Positions 5,015 to 34,207 of a DNA stretch of 42,024 nt are shown one piece after another. The stretch is from Rhizobiales bacterium Ga0077556 (GTDB lineage: Bacteria > Pseudomonadota > Alphaproteobacteria > Rhizobiales > Phreatobacteraceae). Where the stretch lies: the NCBI GenBank assembly GCA_001464235.1, contig LNFH01000370.1, positions 1-42,024 on the forward strand, written 5' to 3'. Positions within the stretch are counted from its first letter, which is position 1; each line of letters opens with the position of its first letter. The position numbers and the translations under genes are program-made. Under the pieces are notes generated by a model. It had not been told where the DNA came from, did no database searches, and saw nothing but the letters and a program-made list of their open reading frames with translations.

Positions 5015-7161
5015 ATGAAGATCGAGGCGATGGACCCGAACGCCCTCCAGAAGCTGGAGGAGGAGTTCGATTCCGAAGTGCGCTTCCGGCCGCTCCTGCC
5101 GGCCACCGCCTGGCTGGTCGCGGGCCTGCTCTTCGCGCTCTCGGCCTTCCACTACTACACGGCCGGCTTCGGCCTGCTGCGCGAAGCGACCCATCGCGGC
5201 ATCCACATGGCCTTCGTGCTGGGCCTGATCTTCCTCGTCTTCCCGCTCTTGAAGCGCGACCACCAGACGCCGCCGCAGTCCGGCGTCCTCGCCCCCGGCG
5301 GCATCGCTCTCTACGACTGGGTCCTGGCGGCCGGCGCCGTCGTCGCCAGCCTCTACATGCCGTGGATCTACGACGACCTCGCCTTCCGCGTCGGCAATCC
5401 GGAGCCGCTCGACGTCGCCATGGCGACCACCGCCATCCTCGTGCTGCTGGAAGCGACGCGGCGCAGCGTCGGCTGGCCGCTGCCGATCATCGCCATCTCG
5501 CTGATGGTCTATGCCATGTACGGCCAGTCGCTGCCGGGCATCCTCGCCCATCCCGGCAACAGCTGGTCGTCGGTGGTCAACCACCTCTACCTCACCAGCA
5601 ACGGCATCTACGGCATCGCGCTGGGCGTCGTGGCGACCTACGTCTTCCACTACGTCCTGTTCGGCGTGCTGGCGACGCGCATCGGCCTCGGACGCCTGTT
5701 CATCGACCTCGCCACGGCCCTCGCCGGCCGCTACTCGGGCGGCCCGGCCAAGGTGTCGATCTTCGGCTCGGCCATGTTCGGCATGATCTCGGGCTCGTCG
5801 ATCGCCAACACGGTGACGGTCGGCTCGCTCACCATCCCCGCCATGATGCGGCTCGGCTATCCGCGCCACATGGCCGCCGCCATCGAATCCACCGCCTCCA
5901 CCGGCGGGCAGATCACGCCGCCGATCATGGGGGCCGCGGCGTTCCTGATGATCGAGTTCCTCAACCTGCCCTACCAGTCCATCGTGCTGGCGGCGCTCAT
6001 CCCGGCCTTCATGCACTTCTTCGGCGTGTTCTGGCAGGTGCATTTCGAGGCGAAGAAGAACGGCCTGAAGGGCATCCCCGCCGCCGACCTGCCCAAGGCG
6101 CGCGAGGTCATCGCCCGCGACTGGCCGGCCGCCGTCCCGCTCATCGTGCTGCTGATGGTGCTGTTCTCCGGCTTCACGCCCTATCTCGCGGCCTTCTGGG
6201 GCATCACCGCCTGCGTGCTCGTCGGCTTCACCCGCCGCAATCCGGTGGTGGCGGTCGGCTACCTCGCCGTGATGATCGCCGCCATCGCCGCCGGCCTCCT
6301 CACCGAGGGCTGGGCGACGATTGCCATCGCCGCCGGCGTCGCCGTGGTCTGCACCGCCTTCGCGCTGCGCGACCCGGAGGGCAAGTTCCTCACCGCCGAC
6401 ATGATCGACGCCTTCGTGGTGGGCGCCAAATATGCCATCGCGGTCGGCGCCGCGGCCGCCACCGTCGGCATCATCGTCGGCGTCGTGACGCTGACCGGCG
6501 TCGGCTTCAAGATCTCCAACATCGTGACGAGACCGGCTCGATCCTGCCGGCCTGGGCCTACGACGCCAAGGGCATGACCCTGTTCTACACGCTGGTGATG
6601 ACGGCAATCGTCTGCATCCTGCTGGGGTGCGGCGTGCCGACGACCGCCAACTACATCATCATGGTGACGGTGGCGGCGCCGGCGCTCGCGCTGCTCGGGG
6701 TCGAGCCCATCGTCGCCCACTTCTTCGTCTTCTACTACGGCGTCCTCGCCGACATCACGCCACCGGTGGCGCTCGCGGCCTATGCCGCGGCCAGCATGGC
6801 GGGGGCCGATCCGTTCAAGACCGGCAACACCGCCTTCCGCCTCGGCCTCGCCAAGGCGCTGGTGCCCTTCGTCTTCGTCTACGGGCCCTCGCTGCTCATC
6901 GTCACCAAGGGCTTCACCTGGACCGACTTCGTGGTGACGGCAGCCACCTGCGCCCTCGGCGTCTTCATCCTGGCGGCGGCGCTGACCGGCTATGCCTTGG
7001 TGCGCATGCCGCTGTGGCAGCGCCTCTCCCTCGGCCTCTCCGGCCTCCTCCTGATGGCGCCGAACATCCCCGCGAGCCTCCTCGGCATCGCCGTGGCCTT
7101 GCCGGCGCTGCTCGCCCAGATCGCCGCAAGCAAGCGGGAGGCCGCCGCGCCGGCGGCGTGA
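5015..7161 (+). pseudogene. TRAP transporter permease, fused 4TM/12TM type, frameshifted
   Basis: This encodes the membrane part of the TAXI-TRAP system, with small (DctQ-like) and large (DctM-like) subunits fused; about 715 residues across both frames. The first frame runs from the ATG at 5015 through motifs such as GSSIANTVTVGSLTIPAMM and STASTGGQITPPIMG to TGVGFKISNIVT near 6528. From 6529 the family match continues one frame over with ETGSILPAWAYDAKG, then CGVPTTANYIIM and ADITPPVALAAYAAA, to the stop at 7161. The first frame instead ends at 6577. A loss of 1 nt, or 1 plus a multiple of 3, explains the break. No slippery heptamer is seen, so programmed frameshifting is unlikely. Either the gene is broken or the assembly is wrong here. 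Confidence 0.88.
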
Positions 7162-7222
7162 CGGCATCGGGGAACCGCCGGAGAGCGTGCCGCGTTACCT
7201 GCGGCTCTCTCCGGAGGATTCC

Positions 7223-7708
7223 ATGCTCGACACGCTCATCGCCACGGCACGGGCCGACCTCCTGCCGCATCTCCTGGCGCTGAGCGTCGCCTACGTGCTG
7301 GTGCTCCCCATCGGCTGGGACCGCGAGAAGGAGGACCGCAGCGCGGGCCTGCGAACCTTCCCGCTGGTCGCCATCGCCTGCTGCGGCTTCGTCCAGGCGG
7401 CGGAGATGAAATACGGCGCCCATCCCGACGCCATGGGCAAGATCGTCGAGGGCCTCATCACCGGCATCGGCTTCATCGGCGGCGGCGCCATCCTCAAGCA
7501 GGGGGCCTCGGTGCGCGGCACGGCGACCGCGGCGAGCCTGTGGGCGACGGGCGCCATCGGCACGGCGGTCGGCCTCGGCGCCTATGGCGTCGCGATGCTG
7601 GTGGCGGTGTTCACGGTCATCACGCTGAAATGGCTGACGCCGCTGAAGGAGGAAGCGCGGGAGCAGGGCGCCGCCGAACCCGGTGACGGCGGCGAGGCGC
7701 AGCGCTAG
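7223..7708 (+). CDS. MgtC/SapB family membrane protein
   Basis: A 161-residue inner-membrane protein covering only the conserved N-terminal membrane domain of the MgtC/SapB family. Visible hallmarks are LPIGWDREKEDRSAGLRTFPLV and the glycine-rich GIGFIGGGAILKQG followed by VRGTATAASLWATGAIG, with four or five hydrophobic helices. The start is the ATG at 7223 because GGAGG at 7213-7217 is well spaced; an upstream ATG at 7187 lacks such a site. True MgtC, tied to magnesium limitation and virulence, has an extra cytosolic C-terminal domain that is absent here, so the role is uncertain. It lies 62 bp after the TRAP permease and may be expressed separately. Confidence 0.9.
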   Translation: MLDTLIATARADLLPHLLALSVAYVLVLPIGWDREKEDRSAGLRTFPLVAIACCGFVQAAEMKYGAHPDAMGKIVEGLITGIGFIGGGAILKQGASVRGTATAASLWATGAIGTAVGLGAYGVAMLVAVFTVITLKWLTPLKEEAREQGAAEPGDGGEAQR

Positions 7709-7724
7709 CGCGTGGGCAAGGAGC

Positions 7725-7798
7725 TGGAGCGGGTGAAGGGAATCGAACCCTCGTATGCAGCTTGGGAAGCTGCCGTTCTACCATTGAACTACACCCGC
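7725..7798 (-). tRNA. tRNA-Gly (anticodon CCC)
   Basis: On the minus strand the sequence folds as a full tRNA: acceptor GCGGGTG paired with CACCCGC, D-arm with AGTTCAATGGTAGA, anticodon stem GCAGC/GCTGC around the loop TTCCCAA (anticodon CCC), and T-arm GAGGGTTCGATTCCCTT. The 3' CCA is encoded (7725-7727). It reads GGG glycine codons. It stands alone between the MgtC-like gene and the damaged catalase gene. Confidence 0.97.
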
Positions 7799-8014
7799 GG
7801 GAGACGATCCGGTGTCCCGGGTCCGTCCGCAACCCGTCAGGCCCGTGACCGGGCCTTCGGAAGTCCGTTCTTGTAGCCTTTCCGACCGCGGGGGATCAAG
7901 AGCCGTCGGGGTCCCCGCGAGCCGCCCGAACCCTTCCGTAACACTGTCGTCGCCCTCGGCGTATCACATCCCAGCGCTGCGAGATCATCGCAGCGGCGAG
8001 GGAGGACGATACCC

Positions 8015-8981
8015 ATGAAAGCCCTTTGTGCAGCCGCTGCGGCCGGGATGGCCGCGAGCCTTTTTGCCCCGGCGGTCCCAGCCCTTGCGCAGGATGCCGA
8101 CCCGACGCCCATCGTCGAACTGATGCGGACCTTCGCAGGCCCCGGCACCCATCGTCCGAGCGGCGTTCGTTCCCAACGCCGCCGCCCAGGCCCTGTCCAA
8201 AGCGGTGATCCTGACGCGCAATTCGCAGGCGCTCATCCGCTTCTCGGTGGGCGGCGGAAACCCCGCCGTCGCGGACGGCTCGCGTGGCGGCAACCGGGGC
8301 CTCTCCGTCCGCATCGACGGCGACGGCCCCGGCCAGACCGAATTCGTGATGGTCAACGCGCCGGTGAATTTCGCGCGGACGCCGGCCCAGATGCTGGGTT
8401 TCCTCGAAGCCCGCCGGCCGGGCGCCAACGGCCAGATGGACCCGGAGAAGGTGCGCGCCTTCACCGAGGCCAATCCGGAGACGACGGGCCAGGCGCGCTA
8501 TCTCGCCAGCAAGCCCATCCCGGGATCGTGGGTCGGCGTGAACTACTGGGCCCTCCACGCCTACACCCTGACCAACGCCAGCGGCGCCGCGCAGGTGGTC
8601 AAGTTCCGCATGGATCCGCTCGACGGCACCGTGAACCTGACCGACGACGAGGCCCGGGCACGCCCGCGCGACTTCCTCGCCGACGAGCTCGCCGGCCGGC
8701 TCTCCGCCTCCAGGCCCGCCGGGTTCAGGATGGTGGCGATCATCGGCCGCCCCGGTGACCCGACCAACGACGTCACCCGGATGTGGGAGGGGGAGGACAG
8801 CCGGCCCGTCGTCGAGCTCGGCACGCTGCATGTGCGCGCCGCAGCCGACGCGGCCCGCTGCGACGGCACGATCTTCGCCCCGACGATCCTCGCCGACGGC
8901 ATCGCGGGACCGGCCGACGACCCGATGTTCGCGATCCGCACCCCCGCCTATGCGATCTCGATCACCAAGCGGCAGAACTGA
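8015..8981 (+). pseudogene. Catalase-family peroxidase (SrpA-like), frameshifted and lacking the active-site block
   Basis: This is a periplasmic haem peroxidase of the short catalase family, broken near its N-terminus. From the ATG at 8015, preceded by GGGAGG, the first frame encodes a signal peptide ending PALAQDADP and then ELMRTFAGPGTHRPS. Around 8150-8165 the match jumps frames to AAFVPNAAAQALSKAV and then RFSVGGGNPAVAD, and continues to TPAYAISITKRQN at the stop. In intact relatives the region between these parts carries the HAKG-type block with the distal haem-pocket histidine; that block is absent in every frame. The loss is therefore larger than one base. The downstream haem-domain sequence looks intact, including GVNYWALHAYTLTN. 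As written the product cannot be an active catalase. Confidence 0.85.
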
Positions 8982-9017
8982 GCGCCGCGCGCCGGCTGCG
9001 GGGCGCCCCGCATGAGA

Positions 9018-9047
9018 AACGGCCCGCGGCGACAACCGCGGGCCGTT
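9018..9047. terminator. GC-rich 12-bp hairpin, copy 1 of a repeated element
   Basis: AACGGCCCGCGG (9018-9029) pairs perfectly with CCGCGGGCCGTT (9036-9047) around CGACAA. It sits between the catalase stop and the convergent TadG-like gene, so it could end transcription from both sides, although no long T-run follows. A near-identical copy lies at 10538-10568. Confidence 0.55.
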
Positions 9048-9078
9048 CCATGTCGCGATGAGGAGACCGCGGCGGGCG

Positions 9079-10293
9079 CTACTGCGTCAGCCGAACGCTG
9101 GTCGTGTTCGAGGACGAGGACGACAGGCCGCTGTTGGTCGAGAGCTTCCAGTCTAGGCTGTTGAAGATGATCGTGTTGGAGACGATCTGGATCCGCGAGC
9201 CGTTGACCGTGGAGGTCGAGTTCCACGTGAGGTCGCGCCGCGGCAGGTAGATGAGCCCGGAGATCTCCTCGCTCACCGAGGAGTTGAACACATACTGGGT
9301 CGTGTTCGTGCTGGTGCTCGGCTCGAACATGAGGATGTTCGCATAGGTGCCGGTGGTCGGGGCAGAGAGCTTGGCGGTGAGACCGCCGTTGAAGCGGATC
9401 TCCGAATTGGTGTCGGAGAAATAGAAGGTGACGCCGGTGCCCTCGATGACGGCGTTGGAATTGATCACCATCCGGCCCTTGATGATGTGCAGGCCCGGCT
9501 GGAAGACGATGCGCGGCGAGCCGTTGAAGTTGATGTCGCACCACACCGAGCCGGCCGGCATGGTGTGCGCCCCGCCGCCCGCCGGCGGATCGTAGACCTG
9601 CTTGGTGTTGGTGCAGGCGCCGACGGTGGGTTTGGGCAGCTTGCCCGCATAGGGATCGGTCGCGGCGGCGCAGCCCGTCTGGATCGGCAGCGGGCTGGAC
9701 GTGTTCTTGATGATGTTGGTGCCCTGGATGCAGAAGGTCTTCAGGTTCAGCGTGGTGCCGGCGTTGAAGATGGCGGCGGGGGACGCGGTGGAGCGGACGT
9801 GAACCTCGCAGTCCGGCGCGTTGATCCTCGCGCCGGAATTGACCAGCAGCGACTGCGACGTGTTGGGCGCCAGCGCGAAGATGCAGGGCATGGCGGCGGC
9901 GGCCGTGGACGAGGTCGAGCGCACCGCGGCGGCCTTTGCGGTGATCGCCACCGACGTGGTGCCGACGACGGCCATGAAGGTGGTGGGGACGGTGGCGCTG
10001 GCCGTGCCGCTCACCTTGGTGCCGTCGACCTGGAACTGGGCCGTGGCGCCGGCCACGGTGGACTGCCCCGTGAAATAGCCGGATGCGGTGGAGATCTCGG
10101 TGCCGACGGCGCGGGCCCCGGCGAGAACGGAGGCGTCCAGGGTCGCCTGCATGGCGGTGCGTTGCTGGGCGACCCGTGAATAGTCGACGCCGGCGCCCAC
10201 CGTCGCCAGGAGCGGCAGGGCGGCGATTGCGAAGGTGGTCGCGATATTGCCGCGACCGTCGTCAAGGAAACGGCGAACCATCCGAACCGGCAC
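9079..10293 (-). CDS. TadE/TadG-like pilus-assembly family protein
   Basis: About 404 residues. The N-terminus, FLDDGRGNIATTFAIAALPLL then GAGVDYSRVAQQRTAMQATL, is the membrane-anchored TadG-type start: a positive patch, one transmembrane helix, then a helix rich in alanine and glutamine. The remainder is a serine/threonine-rich extracytoplasmic domain with several cysteines and a beta-rich look. Proteins of this kind work with Tad/Flp pili at the envelope, but no tad core genes are in the window. The GTG at 10293 is preferred because GGAG stands 7 nt upstream; an ATG at 10281 is the alternative. The gene is flanked on both sides by copies of the same 30-bp hairpin. Confidence 0.75.
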   Translation of the reverse strand: MPVRMVRRFLDDGRGNIATTFAIAALPLLATVGAGVDYSRVAQQRTAMQATLDASVLAGARAVGTEISTASGYFTGQSTVAGATAQFQVDGTKVSGTASATVPTTFMAVVGTTSVAITAKAAAVRSTSSTAAAAMPCIFALAPNTSQSLLVNSGARINAPDCEVHVRSTASPAAIFNAGTTLNLKTFCIQGTNIIKNTSSPLPIQTGCAAATDPYAGKLPKPTVGACTNTKQVYDPPAGGGAHTMPAGSVWCDINFNGSPRIVFQPGLHIIKGRMVINSNAVIEGTGVTFYFSDTNSEIRFNGGLTAKLSAPTTGTYANILMFEPSTSTNTTQYVFNSSVSEEISGLIYLPRRDLTWNSTSTVNGSRIQIVSNTIIFNSLDWKLSTNSGLSSSSSNTTSVRLTQ

Positions 10294-10457
10294 GTCCAAG
10301 CTCCGCTGTCGTCTCAGTCTTGGCGACAGTGTTACCGGGAGCGGATGAATCCAAGTTTAAGACAACCGCGACCAGATGCGTGGGCTCGTCTCTCGCGTTG
10401 CTGGCTGACGCGATCCTGTTGCCTGTCCGCGCCGTCCCGTGTCGGCTTCGGCACAGT

Positions 10458-10478
10458 ATTGCCTATGATATAGGCAAT
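10458..10478. promoter_or_regulatory. Perfect 21-bp palindrome, candidate operator
   Basis: ATTGCCTAT (10458-10466), the spacer GAT, then ATAGGCAAT (10470-10478) form a perfect two-fold symmetric site of the size bound by homodimeric repressors such as the MarR, GntR or TetR types. It lies 165 bp upstream of the TadG-like start. The regulator is unknown and no regulator gene lies nearby. Confidence 0.5.
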
Positions 10479-10537
10479 CAGCTACCGCCGTCAGATGCGC
10501 AGCCTCTGCGGCATGAACCTTGGCTCCGCCCAGAGAG

Positions 10538-10568
10538 AACGGCCCGCGGCGACAACCCGCGGGCCGTT
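10538..10568. terminator. GC-rich hairpin, copy 2 of a repeated element
   Basis: AACGGCCCGCGG (10538-10549), then CGACAAC, then CGCGGGCCGTT form the same hairpin as at 9018-9047, with one extra C in the loop and the same trailing CCATG. It does not directly follow any visible gene, so it may be a mobile or duplicated structural element and not simply a terminator. Confidence 0.5.
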
Positions 10569-10827
10569 CCATGCGGGCGGCCATGAGGAGCATGGGGACA
10601 GGCCGCCCCGCCGCCCGGCGGCCCCGCTCTTCATGGCGGCGCTCAGATCACGGACGGGTCTGGTGCCGGGACGCGTCCACGTCCCGGCAGGGCACGCCGC
10701 CGTCCCGTTCCGGAACATCCGGCGGCCCTTGTGCGGTACATCGCAAGGGGAGGGCCCGGACGCGGGTTTCGTGCCATTCCGGCCTGTCCCGCTTGCGGAC
10801 GGGGTGAAGGAACCGTAAACGCCGCGC

Positions 10828-13287
10828 GTGTCCCATCCGGCCCTCCCCATCGATGCCGTCATTCCCGACCTGACGCGTGCGCTCGCGGCCGGTCCGCGCG
10901 CCGTGGTGGTGGCGCCGCCGGGGGCCGGCAAGTCGACGCGCGTGCCGCTCGTGCTGATGGAGGAGTCCTGGACCGGGACGGGCAAGATCCTCGTGCTGGA
11001 GCCCCGGCGCATCGCCGCGCGGGCCGTCGCCGACCGCATGGCGCGGACGCTGGGGGAAGAGGTCGGGGGCCGGGTCGGCCTCCGCGTGCGCTTCGGTTCG
11101 AAGGTGTCGTCGCGGACGCGGGTCGAGGTGGTGACCGAGGGCATCTTCACCCGCATGATCCTCGACGACCCCGCGCTGACGGGGGTTGCCGCGGTGCTGT
11201 TCGACGAGTTCCACGAGCGCAGCCTCGACGCCGATCTCGGCCTCGCCCTGGCGCTCGACGCGCAGGGGGCCCTGCGCGAGGACCTGCGCATCCTCGTCAT
11301 GTCGGCGACGCTCGACGGCGCGCGGGTGGCGCGGCTCCTTTCCGATGCGCCCCTCATCGAGAGCGCCGGCCGCGCCTTTCCCGTAACGACGCGCCACGTG
11401 GGGCGGGATCCCGCGGCCCGGCTCGAGGACGAGGTGGCGCGGGTGGTGCGCCGGGCGCTGGCGGAGGAACCCGGATCGGCGCTGGTCTTCCTGCCGGGAG
11501 CCTCCGAGATCCGCCGCACAGCCGATCTCCTCGCCGCGACGGTGAAGGACCCGGCCGTCGACGTCGTCCAACTCTTCGGCGCCCTGGACCGGGCGGACCA
11601 GGACCGCGCCATCGAGCCGGCGCCGGCCGGGCGGCGCAAGGTGGTTCTGGCGACCTCCATCGCCGAGACCTCGCTGACCATCGAGGGCGTGCGGATCGTC
11701 GTCGATTGCGGCCTCGCCCGCGTCCCCCGCTTCGAGCCCGACCTCGGGCTGACGCGGCTCGAGACGGTGCGCGTGTCGCGCGCCGCCGCCGACCAGCGCC
11801 GCGGCCGCGCCGGCCGCACCGAGCCCGGCGTCTGCTACCGGCTGTGGGACGAGGCGCAGGAGGGTGCCTTTCCGGCCTATGCGACGCCCGAGATCCTCGC
11901 CGCCGACCTCTCCTCCTTCCTGCTCGACTGCGCCGCCTGGGGCGTCGGCGATCCGACGAGCCTCGCCTTCCTCGATCCGCCGCCGAAGCCGGCGCTGGCG
12001 GAGGCGCACGCGCTGCTCGATAGCCTCGCCGCCCTCGACGCGGACGGTCGCATCACCGCCGAGGGCAAGGTGCTGCGCGGCCTGCCGCTCACCCCGCGCC
12101 TGGCCCGCATGGTGGTGGACGCGAGCGCCCGCGGCGAGGGACGGCTCGCCGCCGATCTCGCCCTGCTGGTGTCCGAGCGTGGCCTCGGCGGCGAAGACGT
12201 CCATCTCGGCCACCGGCTCGACCGGCTGCGCACCGACCGCTCGCGCCGCGCCGAGGACGCCCGGCGGATGGCGGCCGGCTGGCTGCGGGAGGTGAAGGGC
12301 GCGCCCGACACCGGGTCGGGTCCGGAGCGGGCCGGTGCGGTGCTGGCGCTGGCCTTTCCCGACCGCATCGCCCGGGCGCGCGGCAAGGACGGAGACTTCG
12401 TCCTCGCCAACGGCCGCGGCGGGTCGGTCGATCCCGCCTCGCCGCTCGCCCGGGAGACCTTCCTCGCGGTGGCGGAGATCGGCGGTGTCGCGGCCAGGGC
12501 GCGCATCCTCTCGGCCGCGCCGATCAGCCTCGCCGAGATCGAGGAGGGTTTTGCCGACAGGATCGAGACGCGCGAGGACGTGACCTTCGACAAGGCCGCC
12601 GCGGCGCTGCGGTCGAAGCGCTCGCGCCGGCTCGGGGCCGTCAATCTCGGCGAACAGACCCTCGCCGTGCCGGCGGACGAGGCGAGCGCCGCCAGGCTCG
12701 CCGAGGGCATCGCCCAGATCGGCCTTCACCGCCTGCCCTGGACCAAGGCGCAGCTGGCGCTGCGCCACCGCGTCGCCTTCCTGCGCCGGGTGGACGAGAG
12801 CTTTCCCGACCTGTCGGACGAGACCCTGGCCGCCACAGCCGCCGACTGGCTGGCACCGCACATCCTCGGCAAGTCGGCATTGTCGCAGATCGGCGCTGAT
12901 GATCTCGGCAACGCCCTCGACCAGTTGGTGCCGTGGGACGTGAAGCGGCGGATCGAGACCGACCTGCCCAGCCACTTCGACGCGCCGTCCGGCCAGCGCC
13001 ACCCCATCGACTACGAGGGGGAGGAGCCGGTGCTGTCGATCCGGGTGCAGGAGCTGTTCGGCCTCGCCGTCCATCCGAGCGTGGCGCGCGGCAAGATCCC
13101 CCTGGTCGTGGAGCTCCTGTCGCCGGCGCACCGGCCGGTTCAGGTGACGCGCGACCTCCCGGGATTCTGGAAGGGCTCATGGCAGGCGGTGAAGTCAGAG
13201 ATGAAGGGCCGCTATCCGCGCCATCCCTGGCCCGACGACCCCGCTGCCGCCGCTGCGACGCACCGGGCGAAGCCGCGGGGGACGTGA
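10828..13287 (+). CDS. hrpB: ATP-dependent helicase HrpB
   Basis: An 819-residue DEAH-family helicase at the usual HrpB length. Walker A APPGAGKST is at residues 29-37, the DEFH box at 126-129 (LFDEFHERS), motif III is MSATLDG, and motif VI is QRRGRAGR. The HrpB-specific C-terminal domain is present and ends RYPRHPWPDDP. The protein is presumed to unwind RNA or nucleoprotein complexes; its cellular role in alphaproteobacteria is poorly defined. It starts at GTG 10828 with no clear ribosome-binding site, so a slightly different start is possible. It converges on the TPR lipoprotein gene with only 7 bp between stop codons. Confidence 0.95.
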   Translation: MSHPALPIDAVIPDLTRALAAGPRAVVVAPPGAGKSTRVPLVLMEESWTGTGKILVLEPRRIAARAVADRMARTLGEEVGGRVGLRVRFGSKVSSRTRVEVVTEGIFTRMILDDPALTGVAAVLFDEFHERSLDADLGLALALDAQGALREDLRILVMSATLDGARVARLLSDAPLIESAGRAFPVTTRHVGRDPAARLEDEVARVVRRALAEEPGSALVFLPGASEIRRTADLLAATVKDPAVDVVQLFGALDRADQDRAIEPAPAGRRKVVLATSIAETSLTIEGVRIVVDCGLARVPRFEPDLGLTRLETVRVSRAAADQRRGRAGRTEPGVCYRLWDEAQEGAFPAYATPEILAADLSSFLLDCAAWGVGDPTSLAFLDPPPKPALAEAHALLDSLAALDADGRITAEGKVLRGLPLTPRLARMVVDASARGEGRLAADLALLVSERGLGGEDVHLGHRLDRLRTDRSRRAEDARRMAAGWLREVKGAPDTGSGPERAGAVLALAFPDRIARARGKDGDFVLANGRGGSVDPASPLARETFLAVAEIGGVAARARILSAAPISLAEIEEGFADRIETREDVTFDKAAAALRSKRSRRLGAVNLGEQTLAVPADEASAARLAEGIAQIGLHRLPWTKAQLALRHRVAFLRRVDESFPDLSDETLAATAADWLAPHILGKSALSQIGADDLGNALDQLVPWDVKRRIETDLPSHFDAPSGQRHPIDYEGEEPVLSIRVQELFGLAVHPSVARGKIPLVVELLSPAHRPVQVTRDLPGFWKGSWQAVKSEMKGRYPRHPWPDDPAAAAATHRAKPRGT

Positions 13288-13294
13288 GAAGGCC

Positions 13295-14161
13295 TCACCC
13301 CCGAGGAGCGGGGGGCGTGGCGGCAGCGGCCGGAGCGGCCGGCGCCTGCGCACCGGGGCGCTGGGCCTGCCCGCGCCGCTCGCTCTGGCGGATCTGCGCC
13401 CACGAGTTCTGCTGCGTCACCATGGAGCGCAGGTAGGCGACGTTCTGCTCGGCCTCGGCGGGCGGCAGGTCCTTGCGGGCGATCTCCTCGGCCTCGGCGA
13501 AACGGCCCTGGAGGCCGACGACGAGGGCGAGGTTCTGGCGCACGCGCTTGTCGGCCTGGGGATGGCCGGCCGCCTGGCGCAGGGCCTGCTCGGCCTGGGG
13601 GAGCTGGCGCGAGAGGGCGTAGGACAGGCCGAGGTTGGAGAGGATCGCCGGCTCGCCCGGGGCGATCTTCAGGGCGTCGTTGTAGAGGGCCTGGGCCTCT
13701 TGAGGCCGGCCCATCTGGTCGTAGATGGAGGCCTGGACGTTGATGATGCGCCAGTCAGGCTGATCGGGCCGGTGGGCGCGACCGAGCACCTGGAGCGCCT
13801 GGTCGTGGCGGCCCGCATCGGCGAGCGCGCGGCCGAACTCGCCCATCAGCGTGAGGTTGCGGGGCTCGCGGATGGCGACGCGCTCCAGCACCGCGACCGC
13901 CTGGACGGACTGGCCGGTGGCGCGCAGGGCGCGGGCATAGCGCATGGCGTTGCCGGTGTCGGTCGGCGTCGAGCGGTAGCGGGCGGCGAGGCCCTCGATC
14001 TCGCTGCGCGCCGCCTGCTCGCCATAGGGCGCCGACGGCACCGAGCCGGTGATGTCGCCGCCACCGCCGCGGCGGGCGCTCAGCGAACAGCCGCCCGAGA
14101 CGAGGGCGGCGAGGGTGACGACGAGGACGAGGGGCCGGACAGACAGGGACGCATTCGGCAT
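13295..14161 (-). CDS. TPR-repeat lipoprotein, TadD-like
   Basis: A 288-residue protein that starts at ATG 14161. The N-terminus has a hydrophobic signal ending VSGGCSLS, a weak lipobox with a lipidation cysteine near residue 25. It is followed by a glycine-rich linker and then four or five tetratricopeptide repeats, for example LGRAHRPDQPDWRIINVQAS and YNDALKIAPGEPAILSNLG. The C-terminus is a disordered Ala/Pro/Gln tail. This layout matches TadD, the pilotin-like lipoprotein of Tad pilus systems, which fits the TadG-like gene 3 kb away. Since the remaining tad genes are absent, a generic outer-membrane TPR lipoprotein is the alternative. Confidence 0.75.
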   Translation of the reverse strand: MPNASLSVRPLVLVVTLAALVSGGCSLSARRGGGGDITGSVPSAPYGEQAARSEIEGLAARYRSTPTDTGNAMRYARALRATGQSVQAVAVLERVAIREPRNLTLMGEFGRALADAGRHDQALQVLGRAHRPDQPDWRIINVQASIYDQMGRPQEAQALYNDALKIAPGEPAILSNLGLSYALSRQLPQAEQALRQAAGHPQADKRVRQNLALVVGLQGRFAEAEEIARKDLPPAEAEQNVAYLRSMVTQQNSWAQIRQSERRGQAQRPGAQAPAAPAAAATPPAPRG

Positions 14162-14209
14162 GACGGACTCCGCGGGACAGGACGTGCGGCTGGTCGTCAG
14201 GTCATAATC

Positions 14210-14223
14210 CGTTAACGTTAACG
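14210..14223. promoter_or_regulatory. 14-bp palindrome upstream of the TPR lipoprotein gene
   Basis: CGTTAACGTTAACG is perfectly symmetric and contains two GTTAAC units. It lies 49 bp upstream of the TadD-like start and is AT-rich against its surroundings, so it may be an operator or part of the promoter. The spacing does not fit a full CtrA site (TTAA-N7-TTAA). Confidence 0.35.
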
Positions 14224-14238
14224 AGCCGCTAAGACGGC

Positions 14239-15597: not shown

Positions 15598-15747
15598 CGT
15601 GCTGGGCGATTCCCGATCATGGCTGACGCCTATAACAGGCAAATGGCAGCTTCGCGGCGATCGGGACGGCAAACGTGAACCCCTTGTCAACCCGGGGCGA
15701 CAGAGACTTTGCCGTCCGCAAAAGGACGTCCCTGGGGAGGGACCACC

Positions 15748-16543
15748 ATGGGAGACCGCATACTCGATGCCTTGGGGCGGCGCATCGCCGCCGTCCTGGA
15801 CAAGCGCTCGCCCGGCTACGAGCCGACGACGCCGAGCGACCCCAACGCGCTGCGCGCCGCGCTCCGCCCGGGGGACATCCTGCTGGTCGAGGGCGACACG
15901 CGCATCTCGGCCGTCATCAAATACCTGACACAGTCGACCTGGTCGCATGCGGCCATGTATGTCGGCCCCATCGAGGGCCTTTGCGAGCCCGACGGCGAAC
16001 CCCACGTGCTGGTGGAGGCCTATCTCGGCGAGGGCGTCATCTCCGCGCCGCTGTCCAAGTATCGCGAGTTCCACACCCGCGTCTGCCGGCCCGTGGGCCT
16101 CACCGAGGCCGACCAGCAGCAGGCCTGCCGGTTCATGATCGAGCGCATCGGCCTCGACTACGACCTGAAGAACATCCTCGACATGCTGCGCTTCCTCATC
16201 CCCCTGGATGATCGCCTTCGGCTCGGGCGATCCGACGCGGGCGATCTGCTCGACGCTCATCGCCCAGGCCTTCGAGACGGTGCGCTACCCGATCCTCCCG
16301 AAGGTGGAGCGCTGCGCGAAGGACGGAGAGCAGCGGGTGAAGGGACAGGCGGCGCGGCGGGAGATCCTGCACATCCGCCACCACTCGCTCTACGCGCCGC
16401 GCGACTTCGACATCTCGCCCTATTTCGCCATCGTCAAGCCGACGATCCAGCGCGGCTTCAACTACAAGAAACTGCGCTGGGGCGACGCCCCGGCCGAGCC
16501 GGCCGGCGAGGACGCCGCGCCGACCCTCAGCAGCGTCGCCTGA
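15748..16543 (+). pseudogene. YiiX/YebB-like permuted NlpC/P60 (papain-like) cysteine hydrolase, frameshifted
   Basis: A lipoyl-hydrolase or peptidase-like protein of the circularly permuted papain fold. From ATG 15748, with GGGGAGG at 15734-15740, the first frame carries LRPGDILLVEGDTRIS and WSHAAMYVG with the presumed catalytic His67. Near 16203-16208, after LRFLIP, the match moves to the next frame with MIAFGSGDPTRAICSTLIAQAF, where the presumed catalytic Cys lies, and ends at 16543 after SPYFAIVKPTIQRGF. In relatives as I recall them, a short basic block (a TPPVP-RWRRR type) stands between these parts; here it is missing. So the loss is a short deletion of more than one base, splitting the catalytic pair between frames. 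Confidence 0.82.
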
Positions 16544-16553
16544 GCCGTAGTCG

Positions 16554-17216
16554 CTACAGCAGGCCGTGCTTGCGGAAGGCCTCGGCGAGCGACATGCCCG
16601 CCTCGAGATCGGCGCGCATGCGCCGCTCGCCGGTGATCTTGGTCATGGCGGTGGAGAGCACGGCGAGCGCCTGGGCGCGCGGCACGACCACCACGCCGTC
16701 GACGTCGCCGACCAGCACGTCGCCGGGCGCGATGGTGACGCCGCCGATGGTGATCGGCACGTCCTTCTCCACCATCATGCCCCGGTACTGGGTGTCGGCG
16801 GGCGACAGCGCCGCGGTGAAGACCGGAAAGCCCATCGCGCGGATGGCGACCACGTCGCGGGCGGCGCCATCGGTGAGGAAGCCGGCCGCCTCGAGATGAC
16901 GGGCGCGGGTGGAGAGGAGTTCGCCCCAAGGGCCGATGTCGGTGTTGCCGCCGGTCGCCATGACGCAGACCTCGCCGGGCTTGAGGTCGTCGACGAGGGC
17001 GATCTCGAGGTCGTAGATGCCCTCGACGAAACCGCTGATGACCTTGTAGCCGCCGGTGCGCGCCGGGCCGAAGAGAACGGTGCCGTCGTCCACCGGCCGG
17101 ATGGAGGGCGGCAGGATCTGGTGGTGCAGGCCGTGCTCGTCGAGCGCGTCCGACACGGGCGCGGCGGCGATGACGGGCCGTGCCGCGGCGATGATGTCGT
17201 CGAAGGTGTCGGTCAT
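16554..17216 (-). CDS. RraA family protein (putative 4-hydroxy-4-methyl-2-oxoglutarate aldolase-like)
   Basis: A 220-residue protein starting at ATG 17216. It shows the RraA/dimethylmenaquinone-methyltransferase fold signatures: GPARTGGYKVISG, the metal-pocket region TGGNTDIGPWGELLSTRA, then GFLTDGAARDVVAIRAMGFP and GDVLVGDVDGVVVVPRAQA. Characterised relatives are either regulators of RNase E (RraA) or class II aldolases acting on 4-carboxy- or 4-hydroxy-4-methyl-2-oxoglutarate, both intermediates of protocatechuate breakdown. Context favours a metabolic enzyme: it is the last gene of a minus-strand cluster with a racemase and an enoyl-CoA hydratase, and pobA is about 13 kb away. It converges on the YiiX-like gene with a 10-bp gap. 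Confidence 0.85.
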   Translation of the reverse strand: MTDTFDDIIAAARPVIAAAPVSDALDEHGLHHQILPPSIRPVDDGTVLFGPARTGGYKVISGFVEGIYDLEIALVDDLKPGEVCVMATGGNTDIGPWGELLSTRARHLEAAGFLTDGAARDVVAIRAMGFPVFTAALSPADTQYRGMMVEKDVPITIGGVTIAPGDVLVGDVDGVVVVPRAQALAVLSTAMTKITGERRMRADLEAGMSLAEAFRKHGLL

Positions 17217-17269
17217 GCGGGCTGTTCCTCCTGTTCGTTGCCGGGAGGATAGGGCGTTCAGCGCCGGTG

Positions 17270-18034: not shown

Positions 18035-19154
18035 TCAGGTCCTTTCGGCGACGAGGCCTGCGGTGAGCGCCGCGTCGATTTCGGTTTGGGAGAGGCCGGC
18101 CGCGGCGAGCACGGCGCGCGTTTCGGCGCCGGGTCCGCGGGCGGGCGGCGCGGCCTCGGTCGGCGTGCCGGAGAAGCGGGGCGCGGGCCGCGGCACCGGG
18201 CCCTCGGGCGTCTCGAGGAAGGTGCCGCGGGCGACGTTGTGCGGGTGGGTCGCGGCCTCCCGCGGATCGAGCACCGGCGCGTAGCAGATCTCCCGGCCGT
18301 CGAGCAGGGCGGTCCATTCGTCCCGCGTCTTCGACCGGAAGGTCGCGGCGATGGCCTCGCGCAGGTCCGGCCACATGGCCTTGTCCCACTGTTTCGCGAA
18401 GCGCGGATCGGAGAGGTTCAGGCCCTTCAGCAGCTCGGCGTAGAACTGCGGCTCCAGCGAGCCGATGGAGACGTACTTGCCGTCGGCGGTGTCGTAGACG
18501 CCGTAGAAGGGCGCGCCGCCGTCGAGCATGTTGGCCTCGCGCGCCACCTTCCAGGTGCCGGCATTGATCATGCCGAAGATCATGGTGCCGAGCACCGCCG
18601 CGCCATCGACCATGGCGGCGTCCACCACCTGGCCGCGGCCGGTGCTCTTCGCGCCGTAGAGGGCGGCGACCATGCCGAGCGCCAGCATCATGCCGCCGCC
18701 GCCGAAATCGGCCGCGAGGTTGAGCGGGGGCACCGGCGGGCGGTCGGCGGGTCCGAGCGGCCAGAGCATGCCGGAGAGGGCGAGGTAGTTGATGTCGTGG
18801 CCCGGCGCCGGGCCATAGGGCCCGTCCTGGCCCCAGCCGGTCATGCGGCCGGCAGACGTCGGGTCCGAGGCCGAGGCGCTCCATGACGCCGGGGCGGAAG
18901 CCCTCCAGCAGGGCGTCGGCACCGGCGATGATCTTCAGCACGAGGTCGGCGGCGCCCGGCTTCTTCAGGTCGACGGCGACCGAGCGGCGGCCACGGCCGA
19001 GGGCATCGCCGGCGTTCCAGGCGGCGCTGCCGGCCCGGTCGATGCGGATGACGTCGGCGCCGAGGTCGGCCAGCATCATGGCGCAGAAGGGCCCGGGGCC
19101 GAGGCCCTGGAACTCGACGATGGTCACGCCGGTAAGCGGGCCGCTTCTGGTCAC
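18035..19154 (-). pseudogene. Alpha-methylacyl-CoA racemase (CaiB/BaiF family), frameshifted
   Basis: This encodes a racemase that inverts the 2-methyl centre of branched acyl-CoAs before beta-oxidation. The start is GTG 19154, with GGGGAGGA a few bases upstream. The first frame reads LTGVTIVEFQGLGPGPFC to FRPGVMERLGLGPDVC at about 18852. From about 18850 the match continues in another frame with GRMTGWGQDGPY, then GHDINYLALSG with the catalytic His and NLAADFGGGGMM with the catalytic Asp of this family, to the stop at 18035. Relatives have roughly nine more residues between GPDVC and GRMTGWG, so a short deletion that shifts the frame fits best. The gene heads the racemase/hydratase/RraA operon. 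Confidence 0.87.
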
Positions 19155-19297
19155 TTGGGTTCCTCCCCGGCCGCCGTGCTGCGGCCCCATGCTTTGGGCG
19201 AAACGCTAAAGCCGGACCGGCGACAGTCAAGGCGACGGCAACCGGCCTTCCGGGGGAGGCCGAAGGGCGGACGCGGGGGCGCGCGACCAAATGGGCG

Positions 19298-20494: not shown

Positions 20495-21475
20495 CTACGG
20501 CGTGATGAGGATCGCCCCCGTCGTCGCCCGCGCCTCCGCCGCCCTGTGGGCTGCGGCGATGTCGCCGAGAGCGAAGCGCGCGCCGATGTCGACCGACACG
20601 TGGCCCGCCGCGATGGCGGCGAAGAGCTCGGCGGCGTTCTCGCGGAAGACGGCCGGGTCGGCATTGTGCGGGAAGACCGAGGGGCGGGTGAGGAAGAGGC
20701 AGCCCTTCTTGTTGAGGAGTTCGGGGTGGATGTCCGGCGCCGGGCCCGAGGCCGCGCCGTAGGACACCATCAGGCCGAAGGGTTGGATGCAGTCGAGCGA
20801 CTTCAGGAACGTGTCCTTGCCGACCGCGTCATAGACCACCCGCGCCTTGCGGCCACCGGTGGCGGCGAGCACGGCGGCCGGCCAGTCCTCCTGCCGGTAG
20901 TCGACGGCGTGGTCGGCGCCGATGCGCTTGGCCAGCGCGCATTTCTCCGGTCCGCCGGCCGTGGCGATCACCTCGGCGCCGAGCGCCTTGCCCCAGCGCA
21001 CCAGGATCTGGCCGACGCCGCCGGCGGCGGAATGGACGAGGATGAGGTCGCCCGGAACCACGCGGTGGGTCTTGCGCAGCAGGTACTGGGCCGTCAGCCC
21101 CTTGAAGATGAGGGTCGCCGCGGCGGCGTCCGACACCGCCTCGGGCAGGATCACCAGCCGCTCGGCCGGCACGATGCGGCGGTCGGCATAGGCACCGATG
21201 CCGGCATTGATGTAGGCGACGCGGTCGCCGGGCTGCAGCGCGGTGACGCCCTCGCCGACAGCCTCGACGACGCCGGCCGCCTCGTGGCCGAGGCCCGTCG
21301 GCGTGGGGAGGGGATAGGTGCCGCGCCGCTGGTAGACGTCGATGAAGTTGAAGCCGATGGCGGTCTGGCGGATCTGCACCTCGCCCGGACCGGGCGGCGG
21401 CAGGTCGATGGTCTCGATCGCCATCACCTCCGGGTCGCCGAAGCCGTGAAGCCGAACCGCGCGTGCCGTCGCCAT
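20495..21475 (-). CDS. Quinone oxidoreductase, zinc-independent MDR family
   Basis: A 326-residue NADPH-dependent quinone reductase of the QOR1 type. Visible features are the N-terminal GroES-like fold (AVRLHGFGDPEVMAIETID), the segment GFNFIDVYQRRGTYPLPTPTG, and the nucleotide-binding motif HSAAGGVGQILVRWGKALG. Zinc-binding cysteines are absent, as expected for QOR. It reduces quinones by one electron and helps detoxify electrophiles. It starts at ATG 21475 and is divergent from the HMG-CoA lyase frame across 139 bp. The C-terminus TGAILITP is complete. Confidence 0.92.
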   Translation of the reverse strand: MATARAVRLHGFGDPEVMAIETIDLPPPGPGEVQIRQTAIGFNFIDVYQRRGTYPLPTPTGLGHEAAGVVEAVGEGVTALQPGDRVAYINAGIGAYADRRIVPAERLVILPEAVSDAAAATLIFKGLTAQYLLRKTHRVVPGDLILVHSAAGGVGQILVRWGKALGAEVIATAGGPEKCALAKRIGADHAVDYRQEDWPAAVLAATGGRKARVVYDAVGKDTFLKSLDCIQPFGLMVSYGAASGPAPDIHPELLNKKGCLFLTRPSVFPHNADPAVFRENAAELFAAIAAGHVSVDIGARFALGDIAAAHRAAEARATTGAILITP

Positions 21476-21614
21476 GGGCGTGTCTCCCTCGTGTCGTCTC
21501 GTCGTTGCCGCCGGGGGCGGGGGCGAAGCTATGCCATGGCGCCGGGCTCGCCGCCATCCGGCCGTCTTGCCACGGCCCCCATCCTTGCCGACAAAGGCGG
21601 CCGGAGGATCGCCC

Positions 21615-23489
21615 ATGACCCAGACGCCACGTTCCGTCGCCATCATCGAGGTCGCGCCGCGCGACGGTCTGCAGAACGAGAAGGTGATGGTCTCGACGGA
21701 GGACAAGATCAGCCTCGTCGAGCGCTCCTTCGCCGCCGGATTCCGCCACGTGGAGGCGGTGTCCTTCGCCAATCCGAAGCGCGTGCCGCAGATGGCGGAT
21801 GCGGAAGCGGTGATGGCGGGGCTTAGCCCCCGCTATGCCGACCGCAACCTCATCGGTCTCGCGCTCAACGCCCGCGGCGCCGAGCGGGCCGTGGCGGCGA
21901 AGTGCAGCCAGATCAACTATGTCGTGGTCGCCTCGGAGACCTTCGCCAACCGCAACCAGAACGCCTCGGTCGCCGATCTCGTCGACGGCACGCGGGATGT
22001 CGCGGCCATCGCGCGCGCGGCGGGCGTGCCCATGTCGATCTCGCTCGCCACCGCCTTCGGCTGCCCCTTCGACGGGGAGGTGCCGGTGGAGCGGGTGATG
22101 GGCATCGTGGAGGCGCTGCTGAAGAGCGATCCCTTCGACATCGGCTTCGCCGACACGATCGGCTGCGCCGTGCCGCCGCAGGTCACCGACATGCTGGCGC
22201 GCGCACGGGCTCTGTCGACCTCGGTGAAGTGGCGCTGCCATTTCCACGACACCCGCAACACCGGCGTCGCCAACGCCATCGCCGCGGTGGAGGCCGGCGT
22301 CGACTTCCTCGACGCCTCGACCGGGGGCGTCGGCGGCTGCCCCTTCGCCCCGGCGGCGACCGGCAACGTCGCGACCGAGGACCTCGTCTACGTCTTCAAC
22401 CGCATGGGCATCGAGACCGGGCTCGACATCGACACGCTGCTCGACACCTCGCGCTGGCTCTCCGGCGTGCTCGGCAAGCCGCTGCCCTCGGCGCTCGGCC
22501 GGGCCGGCGTGTTTCCGGCCTTCACCCTCGAGGACCTGCGCGCCGCCCACGCCCTGGTGCAGACGGCCATGCCGCCGACGCCGGCCTTCGCCTGGCCGCT
22601 GCTCGCAGCCCGCTTCGGCTGCGAGGTGGTGGTCAAGCACGAGAACCATACGCCGACCGGCGCCTTCAAGGTACGGGGCGGCCTCGTCTACATCGACCGC
22701 CTGAGGCGCGAACGGCCGGAGGTGAGGGGCATCGTGTCGGCGACGCGCGGCAACCACGGCCAGAGCCTCGCCTTCGCCGCGCGGCGGGCCGGCCTGCCCG
22801 TGGTCATCGTCGTGCCGCACGGCAATTCGGTGGAAAAGAACGCGGCGATGCGGGCCTTCGGCGCCGAGCTGGTGGAGCACGGCCGCGACTTCGACGAGGC
22901 GCGGGCGCGCGCCGTCGAGATCGCGGGGGAGCGCGGCTACGAGTTTGCCGCCTCCTTCCAGCGCGATCTCGTCATGGGGGTGGGGACCTATGCGCTGGAG
23001 CTGTTCACGGCGCATCCCGACCTCGACGTGGTCTATGTGCCGATCGGCCTCGGCTCGGGCATCTGCGGGGTCATCACGGCGCGCGACCTCCTGGGCCTGA
23101 CCACGGAGGTCGTCGCCGTCGTGGCCGAGAACGCGCCGGCCTATGCGCTGTCGCTGGCGGCGGGCCGGGTGGTGGAGACCAACGACGCCGCGAGCTTCGC
23201 CGACGGCATGGCGGTGCGCATCCCCAACGCGGAGGCTTTCGCGATGATCGCCCGCGGGGCGGCGCGCTGCGTCACCGTCGGGGAGGACGCCATCGCCGAG
23301 GCCATGCGCATCTACTGGACCGACACCCACAATGCCGCCGAGGGGGCGGGGGCCGCGGCCCTGGCGGCGCTGGCGCGGGAGGCGGCCGGGTTGAAGGGCC
23401 GCAAGGCCGGCGTCATCCTGTCGGGCCAGAACGTCGATCTGGCCGTGATGGGCGAAGTGCTGGCGGGGCGGACGCCGGTGGCGGCCTGA
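21615..23489 (+). CDS. Hydroxymethylglutaryl-CoA lyase joined in frame to a threonine dehydratase
   Basis: One 624-codon frame encodes two apparently complete enzymes. Residues 1 to about 302 are an HMG-CoA lyase, which cleaves HMG-CoA to acetoacetate and acetyl-CoA in leucine breakdown: VAPRDGLQNEKV, the metal-binding HFHDTRNTG, and GGVGGCPFAPAATGN with the catalytic Cys. From about residue 303 it is a PLP threonine/serine dehydratase: HTPTGAFKVRGG with PLP lysine K352, SATRGNHGQSLAF, and GLGSGICGV. The join at 22518-22523 reads FPA then FTLEDLRAAH. FPA looks like a lyase C-terminus and FTLEDL like a dehydratase N-terminus lacking only its Met. I know of no such natural fusion, so a short in-frame deletion that removed stop, spacer and start is likely. 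Start: ATG 21615 with GGAGG upstream. Confidence 0.88.
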   Translation: MTQTPRSVAIIEVAPRDGLQNEKVMVSTEDKISLVERSFAAGFRHVEAVSFANPKRVPQMADAEAVMAGLSPRYADRNLIGLALNARGAERAVAAKCSQINYVVVASETFANRNQNASVADLVDGTRDVAAIARAAGVPMSISLATAFGCPFDGEVPVERVMGIVEALLKSDPFDIGFADTIGCAVPPQVTDMLARARALSTSVKWRCHFHDTRNTGVANAIAAVEAGVDFLDASTGGVGGCPFAPAATGNVATEDLVYVFNRMGIETGLDIDTLLDTSRWLSGVLGKPLPSALGRAGVFPAFTLEDLRAAHALVQTAMPPTPAFAWPLLAARFGCEVVVKHENHTPTGAFKVRGGLVYIDRLRRERPEVRGIVSATRGNHGQSLAFAARRAGLPVVIVVPHGNSVEKNAAMRAFGAELVEHGRDFDEARARAVEIAGERGYEFAASFQRDLVMGVGTYALELFTAHPDLDVVYVPIGLGSGICGVITARDLLGLTTEVVAVVAENAPAYALSLAAGRVVETNDAASFADGMAVRIPNAEAFAMIARGAARCVTVGEDAIAEAMRIYWTDTHNAAEGAGAAALAALAREAAGLKGRKAGVILSGQNVDLAVMGEVLAGRTPVAA

Positions 23490-24223: not shown

Positions 24224-24312
24224 TCGGCCCCGCCCGCCTTGCCCGCACGGGTTCCCGCGTGCTAGCGAGCCCGCCACGGATCGACCGATCAGGCGCCACC
24301 GGAGATTTCCTG

Positions 24313-31155: not shown

Positions 31156-32453
31156 ATGTTCAACCGTCGTTCGATGTGCTGGCCGCGAGCCCCGCCGCAG
31201 CGCAGGTCGAGATCCAGTGGTGGCACGCCATGACCGGTGCCAACAACGAGGTCGTCAACAAGCTGGCGCAGGACTTCAACGCCTCGCAGCGCGAGTTCCG
31301 GGTCGTGCCGACCTACAAGGGCTCCTATCCCGACACGATGAATGCCGGCATCGCCGCGTTCCGCGCCGGCAACGCCCCGCACATCCTCCAGGTCTTCGAG
31401 GTGGGCACCGCGACGATGATGGCCGCCCGCGGCGCCATCAAGCCGGTGTTCCAGCTCATGGCCGAGGCCAACGAGCCCTTCGATCCCAAGGCCTACCTGC
31501 CGGCGGTCGCTGGCTACTATTCGACCTCGCGCGGGGAGATGCTGTCCTTCCCGTTCAACTCGTCGTCCTCGGTGATGTGGTACAACAAGGACGCCTTCCG
31601 CCGGGCTGGCCTGAACCCGGACCAGCCGCCGAAGACCTGGCCGGAAGTGTTCGATGCCGCCAAGAAGCTGCGCGCCGCCGGCTATGACAAGTGCGGGTTC
31701 TCCTCCGCCTGGATCACCTGGCTGAACATCGAGCAGTTCTCGCTCTGGCACAACGTGCCGCTCGCCACCCGCGCCAACGGCATCGACGGCTTCGATACGG
31801 AGCTGCGCTTCAACTCGCCGCTGCACGTGCGCCACCTGCAGAACCTCATCGACCTGCAGAAGGACAACACCTTCTCCTATTCGGGCCGCACCAACACCGG
31901 CGAGGGCCGCTTCACCTCCGGCGAGTGCCCGATCTTCCTGACCTCGTCGGGCTTCTACGGCAACGTCAAGGCGAACGCGAAGTTCGACTGGGCCAATGCG
32001 CCGATGCCCTACTATCCGGATGCGGCCGGCGCGCCGCAGAACTCGACGCTGGGCGGCGCCTCGCTCTGGGTCATGGGCGGCAAGCCCGCCGCCGAGTATC
32101 GCGGCGTTGCCAAGTTCTTCGCCTTCCTGTCGCAGACCGAACGCCAGGCGAAGCTGCACACCGACTCCGGCTACCTGCCGATCACGCAGGCCGCCTACGA
32201 GCAGGTGAAGGCCTCCGGTTTCTACCGCGAGAACCCCTATCTCGAAACGCCGATCCTGCAGCTCAACAACAAGCCGCCGACCGAGAACTCGCGCGGCCTG
32301 CGCCTCGGCAACATGGTGCAGATGCGCGACGTCTGGGCCGAGGAGTTCGAGGCGGCGCTGGCCGGGCAGAAGAGCGCCCAGGCGGCGCTGGACGCGGCGG
32401 TCTCGCGCGGCAACGTGATGCTGCGCCAGTTCGAGCGCACCGTCTCCCGCTGA
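31156..32453 (+). pseudogene. ugpB: sn-glycerol-3-phosphate ABC transporter, binding protein UgpB, frameshifted in the signal peptide
   Basis: The periplasmic binding protein for glycerol 3-phosphate and its diesters. The ATG at 31156, with GGAGG at 31141-31145, begins MFNRRSM. Around 31173-31179 the match moves frame to VLAASPAAAQVEIQWWHAM and continues to the stop at 32453, with FPFNSSSSVMWYNKDAF, GRTNTGEGRFTSGECP and LGGASLWVMGGKPAAEY. The mature part is complete. What is missing is the middle of the hydrophobic signal core, so the initiating ATG is out of frame with the rest. A longer frame entering from upstream would have a non-signal-like leader and is unlikely. As written the receptor would not be made or exported normally. 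Confidence 0.87.
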
Positions 32454-32506: not shown

Positions 32507-32518
32507 CGGGGGACCTGA

Positions 32519-33400
32519 ATGGAAAAGCGCGTTGTCTTCGACGGCAAGCTGCTGCCCTACGCGCTTCTGATGCCGCAGCTCCTCATCACCATCATCTTCT
32601 TCTACTGGCCGGCGGCGCAGGCGGTCTGGCAGTCCTTCTTCATCCAGGATGCCTTCGGCCTGACGATGCAGTTCGTCTGGTTCGAGAACTACAGCGTCCT
32701 CTTCGCCAATCCCGACTATTACCGCTCGATGGTCACGACGCTGGTCTTCTCCTGCCTCGTCACCTTCTTCTCGCTGTCGATCGCGCTGATGTTCGCGGTC
32801 CAGGCCGACAAGCACATCAAGGCCGCGGGGGCCTACAAGACCTTCCTGATGTGGCCCTATGCGGTCGCCCCGGCGATTGCCGGCGTGCTCTGGCTCTTCA
32901 TGTTCCAGCCCTCCCTCGGCCTCGTCGCGCAGGCGATCCGCGCGCTCGGCGTCGACTGGAACCCGCAGCTCAACGGCGGCCACGCCATGACGCTGGTGGT
33001 GATGGCCGCGACGTGGAAACAGATCAGCTACAACTTCCTCTTCTTCCTCGCCGGCCTGCAGTCGATCCCGAAGAGCGTCATCGAGGCCGCCGCCATCGAC
33101 GGGGCGCGGCCGGCGCGGCGGTTCTGGACCATCATCTTCCCGCTGCTGTCGCCGACCACCTTCTTCCTGCTGGTCGTCAACATCGTCTACGTCTTCTTCG
33201 ACACGTTCGGCATCATCGACTCGGTCACCGGCGGCGGCCCAGCCCAGGCGACCACGACGCTGGTCTACAAGGTCTTCTCCGACGGGCGCCTGGGCGGTGA
33301 CCTCGGCGGATCGGCCGCCCAGTCGGTGATCCTGATGATCCTCGTGATCGGCCTCACCGCCATCCAGTTCCGCTACATCGAGCGCAAGGTCCAGTACTGA
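32519..33400 (+). CDS. ugpA: sn-glycerol-3-phosphate ABC transporter permease UgpA
   Basis: A 293-residue inner-membrane permease (E. coli 295) with six helices. The N-terminus VVFDGKLLPYALLMPQLLIT and the ABC-permease EAA loop PKSVIEAAAIDGARPARRFW are typical, as is IDSVTGGGPAQATTTLVYK. It forms a heterodimer with UgpE and works with UgpB and UgpC. The start is ATG 32519. Its TGA overlaps the ugpE ATG by one base (TGATG at 33398-33402), so the two are translationally coupled. No damage is visible. Confidence 0.95.
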   Translation: MEKRVVFDGKLLPYALLMPQLLITIIFFYWPAAQAVWQSFFIQDAFGLTMQFVWFENYSVLFANPDYYRSMVTTLVFSCLVTFFSLSIALMFAVQADKHIKAAGAYKTFLMWPYAVAPAIAGVLWLFMFQPSLGLVAQAIRALGVDWNPQLNGGHAMTLVVMAATWKQISYNFLFFLAGLQSIPKSVIEAAAIDGARPARRFWTIIFPLLSPTTFFLLVVNIVYVFFDTFGIIDSVTGGGPAQATTTLVYKVFSDGRLGGDLGGSAAQSVILMILVIGLTAIQFRYIERKVQY

Positions 33401-34207
33401 TGGTCGAGCGCCAGAGCCTCTTCTCGTTCCTGCCGCACGTGATCCTGCTCATCGGGATCTTCATCGTCGCCTTCCCGGTCTATGTGGCCTTCGTCGCCTC
33501 GACCTGGGACCCGGCGACCATCTCCAACGGGCAGATGCCGCTGTGGCCGGGGCCGCATCTCGTCGAGAACTACACGCAGACCCTGTTCCAGGGCACGGCC
33601 AAGTCGTCACGCGAGCCGGTCGGCATGATGATGCTGAACAGCCTCATCATGGCGCTGACGATCGCCATCGGAAAGATCGCCATTTCGATCATCTCGGCCT
33701 TCGCCATCGTCTATTTCCGGTTTCCCTTCCGGATGGCGGCGTTCTGGGTGATCTTCGTCACGCTGATGCTGCCCGTCGAGGTGCGCATCTATCCGACCTA
33801 CAAGATCGTCGCCGATCTCGGCCTGCTGGACAGCTATCTCGGCCTCACCGTGCCGCTGATCGCCTCCGCAACCGCGACGCTGCTGTTCCGTCAGTTCTTC
33901 ATGACCGTGCCCGACGAGCTGGTGGAGGCCTCGAAGATCGACGGGGCGAGCGCCATGCAGTTCTTCAAGGACACGCTGCTGCCGCTGTCGATCACCTCGA
34001 TCGCGGCGCTGTTCGTCATCCAGTTCATCTACGGCTGGAACCAGTATCTCTGGCCGCTGCTGATCACCACCCGCGAGAGCATGGGACGCCCTGACGGAGT
34101 GGCAGATCGCCATGGCGACCGCCGTGCTGGCCATGCTGCCGCCGGTGCTGGTGGTGATCCTGATGCAGCGGCTCTTCGTCAAGGGCCTGGTCGAGACCGA
34201 GAAGTGA
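33400..34207 (+). pseudogene. ugpE: sn-glycerol-3-phosphate ABC transporter permease UgpE, frameshifted near the C-terminus
   Basis: The second permease of the ugp system. From ATG 33400 the first frame is normal through the EAA loop (DELVEASKIDGASAMQFF) and YGWNQYLWPLLITTRESM at about 34083. From 34085 the family match continues in another frame with DALTEWQIAMATAVLAML and [20 protein letters not shown], ending at 34207. Relatives have a loop of about 14 residues ending in a glycine cluster between these two parts, so a short frame-shifting deletion is the simplest reading. The first frame alone would end at 34221 with a nonsense tail and lose the last helix. Confidence 0.88.

Follow-up and report, generated by a model that had tools for sequence, protein, structure and literature searches.

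The frame breaks and the gene fusion in this stretch of DNA are, judging from sequence comparisons, very probably artefacts of assembly (we put the probability at about 95%), arising at joins that dropped about 25 nt each. The window, 42,024 nucleotides long, is the whole of one contig (C370) of a draft genome (G000; 4.42 Mb in 483 contigs, completeness 89.5%). We compared it with stretches of ten relatives from the same genus (G001 to G010). The complete genomes among these are G006, G007 and G008 (4.97, 4.49 and 7.35 Mb, respectively), and the closest to the window is G007, a single contig with about 91% identity to it. A protein search for named relatives gave 80 loci with a best identity of 71%, plus one partial match at 78%; these were too distant and were not used. 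A plasmid search with the window found short or distant matches only. Contigs of G000 under about 3 kb were read as N (masked) and lie outside all searches, while neither the window nor the 495,026 unmasked bases of G000 outside it contain any N.

A preliminary description of the window claimed seven lesions, and all seven are present as clean, blunt losses when the genes are aligned to orthologues in the same genus. Six of them, in coding sequence, each shift the frame a single time, and the seventh, a 24-nt loss, joins two genes into one; every switch or fusion falls at a block that is absent from the window and present in relatives. We counted a window loss as clean if, in at least one relative, 14 or more of the 20 bases on both flanks matched; in the multiple alignment, not every lesion site is covered by every relative. 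Pfam agrees with the gene names that had been proposed.

The first lesion lies in a TRAP transporter large permease (DctM; 5015..7161, plus strand), which has lost 25 nt after 6531; DctM Pfam matches lie on both sides of this position, and the block is present in G007, G003, G001 and G009. A catalase-family gene (8015..8981, plus strand) has lost 26 nt after 8165. Its second part carries the Catalase Pfam match, its N-terminal piece was found separately, and the block is held by all five relatives with a match here (G003, G009, G001, G005 and G010); the window's catalase region has no alignment to G007 at this place. The G001 copy (L075) shows an apparent in-frame stop and a 1-nt gap in the alignment, and this catalase may be decaying naturally in G001.

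Two further 26-nt losses are each filled in G007, G003, G001, G005 and G010. One follows 16205 in a YaeF/YiiX-like C92 amidase (15709..16543, plus strand), with Peptidase_C92 (PF05708) on the first part and no Pfam match on the second. The other, at 18850/18851, splits a CoA-transferase family III gene of the CaiB/racemase type (18035..19190, minus strand) with CoA_transf_3 matches on both sides. The fusion is a 671-aa open reading frame (21474..23489, plus strand) that holds both an HMGL-like and a PALP Pfam domain. The 24 nt lost after 22518 (22 nt when measured against G001) comprise the stop, spacer and start between the two genes, which have a separate stop and start in G007, G003, G001, G009, G005 and G010; beyond this site, on the downstream side, the DNA of G004 and G006 is different.

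The last two coding lesions lie in transport genes. A solute-binding protein (31156..32453, plus strand; called ugpB in the preliminary description; Pfam SBP_bac_8 and SBP_bac_1) has a loss after 31176, within its signal peptide, of 25 nt against G007 and 22 nt against G005, G010 and G004. An ABC permease (33400..34207, plus strand; previously called ugpE; BPD_transp_1) has lost 41 nt after 34083, leaving its C-terminal piece in another frame, and all ten relatives shown hold the block. We also found an intergenic loss of 19-20 nt (17-20 nt in the count of clean losses) at 24291..24292 that had gone unlisted; this site is less certain, as it is variable among more distant relatives. Other gaps were not counted as lesions: 18 nt at 19469 is a gap against G003 only, and losses against G007 of 51 nt at 167, 17 nt at 30441 and 27 nt at 31008 are ragged at their flanks and differ from one relative to another. 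Relative to G007, the window also carries a 62-nt insertion at 956-1017.

The losses are private to this one assembly. Counting gaps of at least 16 nt for which 15 or more of the 20 bases on both flanks matched, and summing over the ten window-relative pairs, we found 35 in the window and two in the partners (both in G006). The window gaps number 7, 7, 4, 4, 6, 5, 2, 0, 0 and 0 against G007, G003, G001, G009, G005, G010, G004, G006, G008 and G002, respectively. Among the relatives themselves, 42 of the 45 possible pairs (three with less than 5 kb aligned were left out) together hold nine such gaps, four of them not multiples of three. G009 is likewise a fragmented draft (330 contigs), and in comparisons with eight relatives it shows no such gap that is its own. 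Pseudogenization would leave several decay lesions per gene, or the same lesion in sister genomes; instead, each named window gene has one such lesion, and none was seen in the relatives compared.

Lesions of the same class occur elsewhere in G000. Our sample outside the window comprised the 495,026 unmasked bases, in 32 sequences, of which 86,131 aligned to 1.2 Mb of G007 (alignments longer than 1500 bp and above 84% identity). These aligned bases contain ten clean losses of at least 16 nt (17, 19, 20, 23, 23, 24, 25, 28, 28 and 29 nt) and one further, ragged loss of 50 nt. They also contain eight insertions of at least 16 nt, of which four are clean (18, 18, 21 and 34 nt; one of these four is not a multiple of three). 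Together with the few clean gaps between relatives, the four clean insertions make it plain that natural indels of similar length do occur. A 13.2-kb contig of ribosomal-protein genes (C480) has no such lesion.

A reference-free scan, using codon usage to detect places where the frame changes on one strand with no stop close by, gave 20 frame breaks in the 495,026 bp of G000 and none in 600,000 bp of G007. The scan recovered three of the six frame-shifting coding lesions in the window, so 20 is probably an underestimate. Scan breaks on aligned contigs (C100, C220, C238 twice and C424) match losses seen in the alignment to G007; the missing block was matched for the breaks on these contigs rather than for each of the 20.

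The sample also places lesions in genes that are indispensable to a cell. On C424, rpoA is split into two frames by a 20-nt loss, and a search for RpoA in G000 finds only these two out-of-frame parts and the gene start on the neighbouring C480. On C472, rplJ is split by a 28-nt loss in the only copy found in G000, and a 19-nt loss removes the end of the following gene, which we read by eye as rplL. Similarly, fabD is split on C259, with a single copy found of its first part, and purC is split on C238 by a 29-nt loss. NCBIfam names the broken pieces rpoA, L10, fabD and purC. Growth requires RNA polymerase alpha, L10 and FabD. Within the unmasked sequence, rpoA, rplJ and fabD are broken as single-copy essential genes; a second copy could hide in the masked contigs (those under about 3 kb), although none is expected. 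Since a growing cell cannot carry them, at least the lesions in rpoA, rplJ and fabD are artefacts. The window lesions share their size, bluntness and indifference to frame, which extends the same reading to the window. The Pfam domain RNA_pol_Rpb2_6 (rpoB) was not found in G000; C472 seems by eye to enter the start of rpoB, and the remainder of this gene probably lies in an assembly gap or among the short contigs that are masked.

Taken together, the 18 clean losses (eight in the window and ten in the sample) have a median of 25 nt and a mean of 24.9 nt (SD 5.2). They range from 17 to 41 nt, mostly 19-29 nt, close to the 25-45 bp that the preliminary description had estimated. Only two of the 18 are divisible by three, as expected without selection on the reading frame. 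Microhomology, which that description had proposed looking for, does not exceed chance at the 17 junctions studied (mean 0.71 against 0.77 for random placement; the catalase junction lies outside this set). These junctions therefore show neither the overlap at the join that overlap-based gap closers, and they alone, would leave, nor the microhomology or direct repeats of a real short-deletion process.

GC-rich DNA had been suggested as a cause, and this part of the earlier proposal is not supported: the missing blocks have 68.7% GC against 69.6% for the region (17 blocks), and hairpins are not in excess. A few blocks contain perfect hairpins, but the 17 fold energies are uniformly distributed relative to random stretches (KS p 0.84). 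Error-rich contig tips can also be set aside, with mismatches at 10 of 102 positions within 3 nt of the junctions and 26 of 340 at 11-20 nt; the sequence is accurate up to the junctions. No adapter-like sequence common to the blocks was seen by eye. As microhomology, GC content and fold energies are all at chance level and the sequence is accurate to the junction, the joins are blunt rather than overlapping, and independent of hairpins and GC.

The contig ends carry a trace of how the assembly was made. Among 25 contigs compared, the ends of C480 and C424 overlap by exactly 98 bases, and C472 and C480 share 98 identical starting bases. These two pairs point to a short-read de Bruijn graph assembly, with k probably 99. 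Such a graph would have broken at each lesion, and the broken ends would afterwards have been joined directly, during scaffolding, gap closing, end trimming or the removal of N runs, with the intervening bases dropped and no N left behind. Contig ends that were first trimmed and then joined directly would fit, as would deletion of N runs.

Some observations count against the artefact reading. Overlap-based gap closing predicts overlaps at the junctions, and there are none beyond chance; random coverage gaps do not predict so tight a size range, which is the one property that this reading leaves without explanation. C480 is free of lesions, and some natural indels have a similar size. The indels and gap-closing faults familiar from short-read drafts are similar in that they produce private frame breaks in conserved and essential genes on several contigs, and exact shared contig ends of k-mer size, but the G000 losses vary unusually little in size (median 25 nt, SD 5.2, n=18). 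Because of this uniformity, and because the junctions lack overlap beyond chance, we could not match them to the error of any named program. The homopolymer indels of long-read assemblies likewise inflate frameshifts across a genome, although these are 1-2 nt long and lie in homopolymers, in contrast to blocks of 17-41 nt. In the accessible portions of the general literature on genome assembly and annotation that we consulted for assembly errors, a class of blunt losses of about 25 nt is not described.

The losses could instead be present in the sequenced DNA but not in the cells, through chimeric or skipped templates formed during amplification or library preparation and taken up where coverage was low. 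Such losses would likewise be private, frame-blind and scattered. However, chimeric templates usually use short homologies, of which we saw none beyond chance, and sizes clustered so tightly near 25 nt would not be expected, so that we regard this origin as unlikely.

The preliminary description had left two explanations standing, an assembly fault or a genome that suffers frequent deletions of 25-45 bp. The first is supported, as single-copy rpoA, rplJ and fabD are broken and the lesions are private to G000; on the same grounds the second is not. That the organism truly undergoes frequent short deletions, as a mutator or by slippage, would agree with lesions that are alike in size and recent, with intact flanks, and deletions by slippage or microhomology are also tens of bases long. 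Yet essential genes are not spared, microhomology does not exceed chance and hairpins are not in excess, making this very improbable. We give equally little credence to the idea that the sequenced DNA really went through a burst of blunt deletions of about 25 bp, independent of repeats and caused by some process whose footprint is fixed, as might happen in a population that is dead or dying.

Ordinary gene decay has the attraction that several of the affected genes are dispensable transporters and enzymes, but codon periodicity is kept on both sides of the lesions, core genes are affected and no breaks occur in 600 kb of the close relative G007; as a general account, decay is contradicted by the lesions in rpoA and rplJ, and its probability is negligible. 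Single-base sequencing errors also shift frames, but they can practically be dismissed, as the preliminary description had argued, since relatives keep a block of 24-41 nt at the very place of every coding break in the window.

We therefore regard the lesions, read as faulty joins, as a warning about data quality rather than a biological feature, with low interest beyond that. G000 serves as one species genome of its collection. Extrapolated to 4.4 Mb, the 18 clean losses seen across about 120 kb of alignment suggest that its false frame breaks may number several hundred, along with some false fusions. What it seems to show about lost genes, numbers of pseudogenes, fusions or completeness cannot be relied on. 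Other drafts can be searched for the same signature: blunt losses of about 25 nt that ignore the frame and also strike essential genes.

Apart from the lesions, a 7-kb segment of the window (13326-20372) has a different location in relatives: in G007 it lies about 0.9 Mb away, and in G003, G001, G005 and G010 it is on other contigs. Its flanks (13.29 kb and 20.50 kb) lie 82-97 bp apart in G007 and G001, 6 bp apart in G006 and about 1.8 kb apart in G003, G009, G005 and G010. The old site is closed up in G000, on C471, so the segment seems to have truly moved. Beside the moved segment in G007, an intergenic repeat (L071:826-1191) matches dozens of places in G000, with palindromic CTCTCCCC...GGGGAGAG-like sequences nearby, and this repeat may have taken part in the move. 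The window also encodes a tRNA-Gly (ccc) at 7725-7798 and a tRNA-Ala (ggc) at 37592-37667; beside the former, the region at 7.8-10.5 kb has no local alignment to G007 and aligns to G001 (7997-13288).
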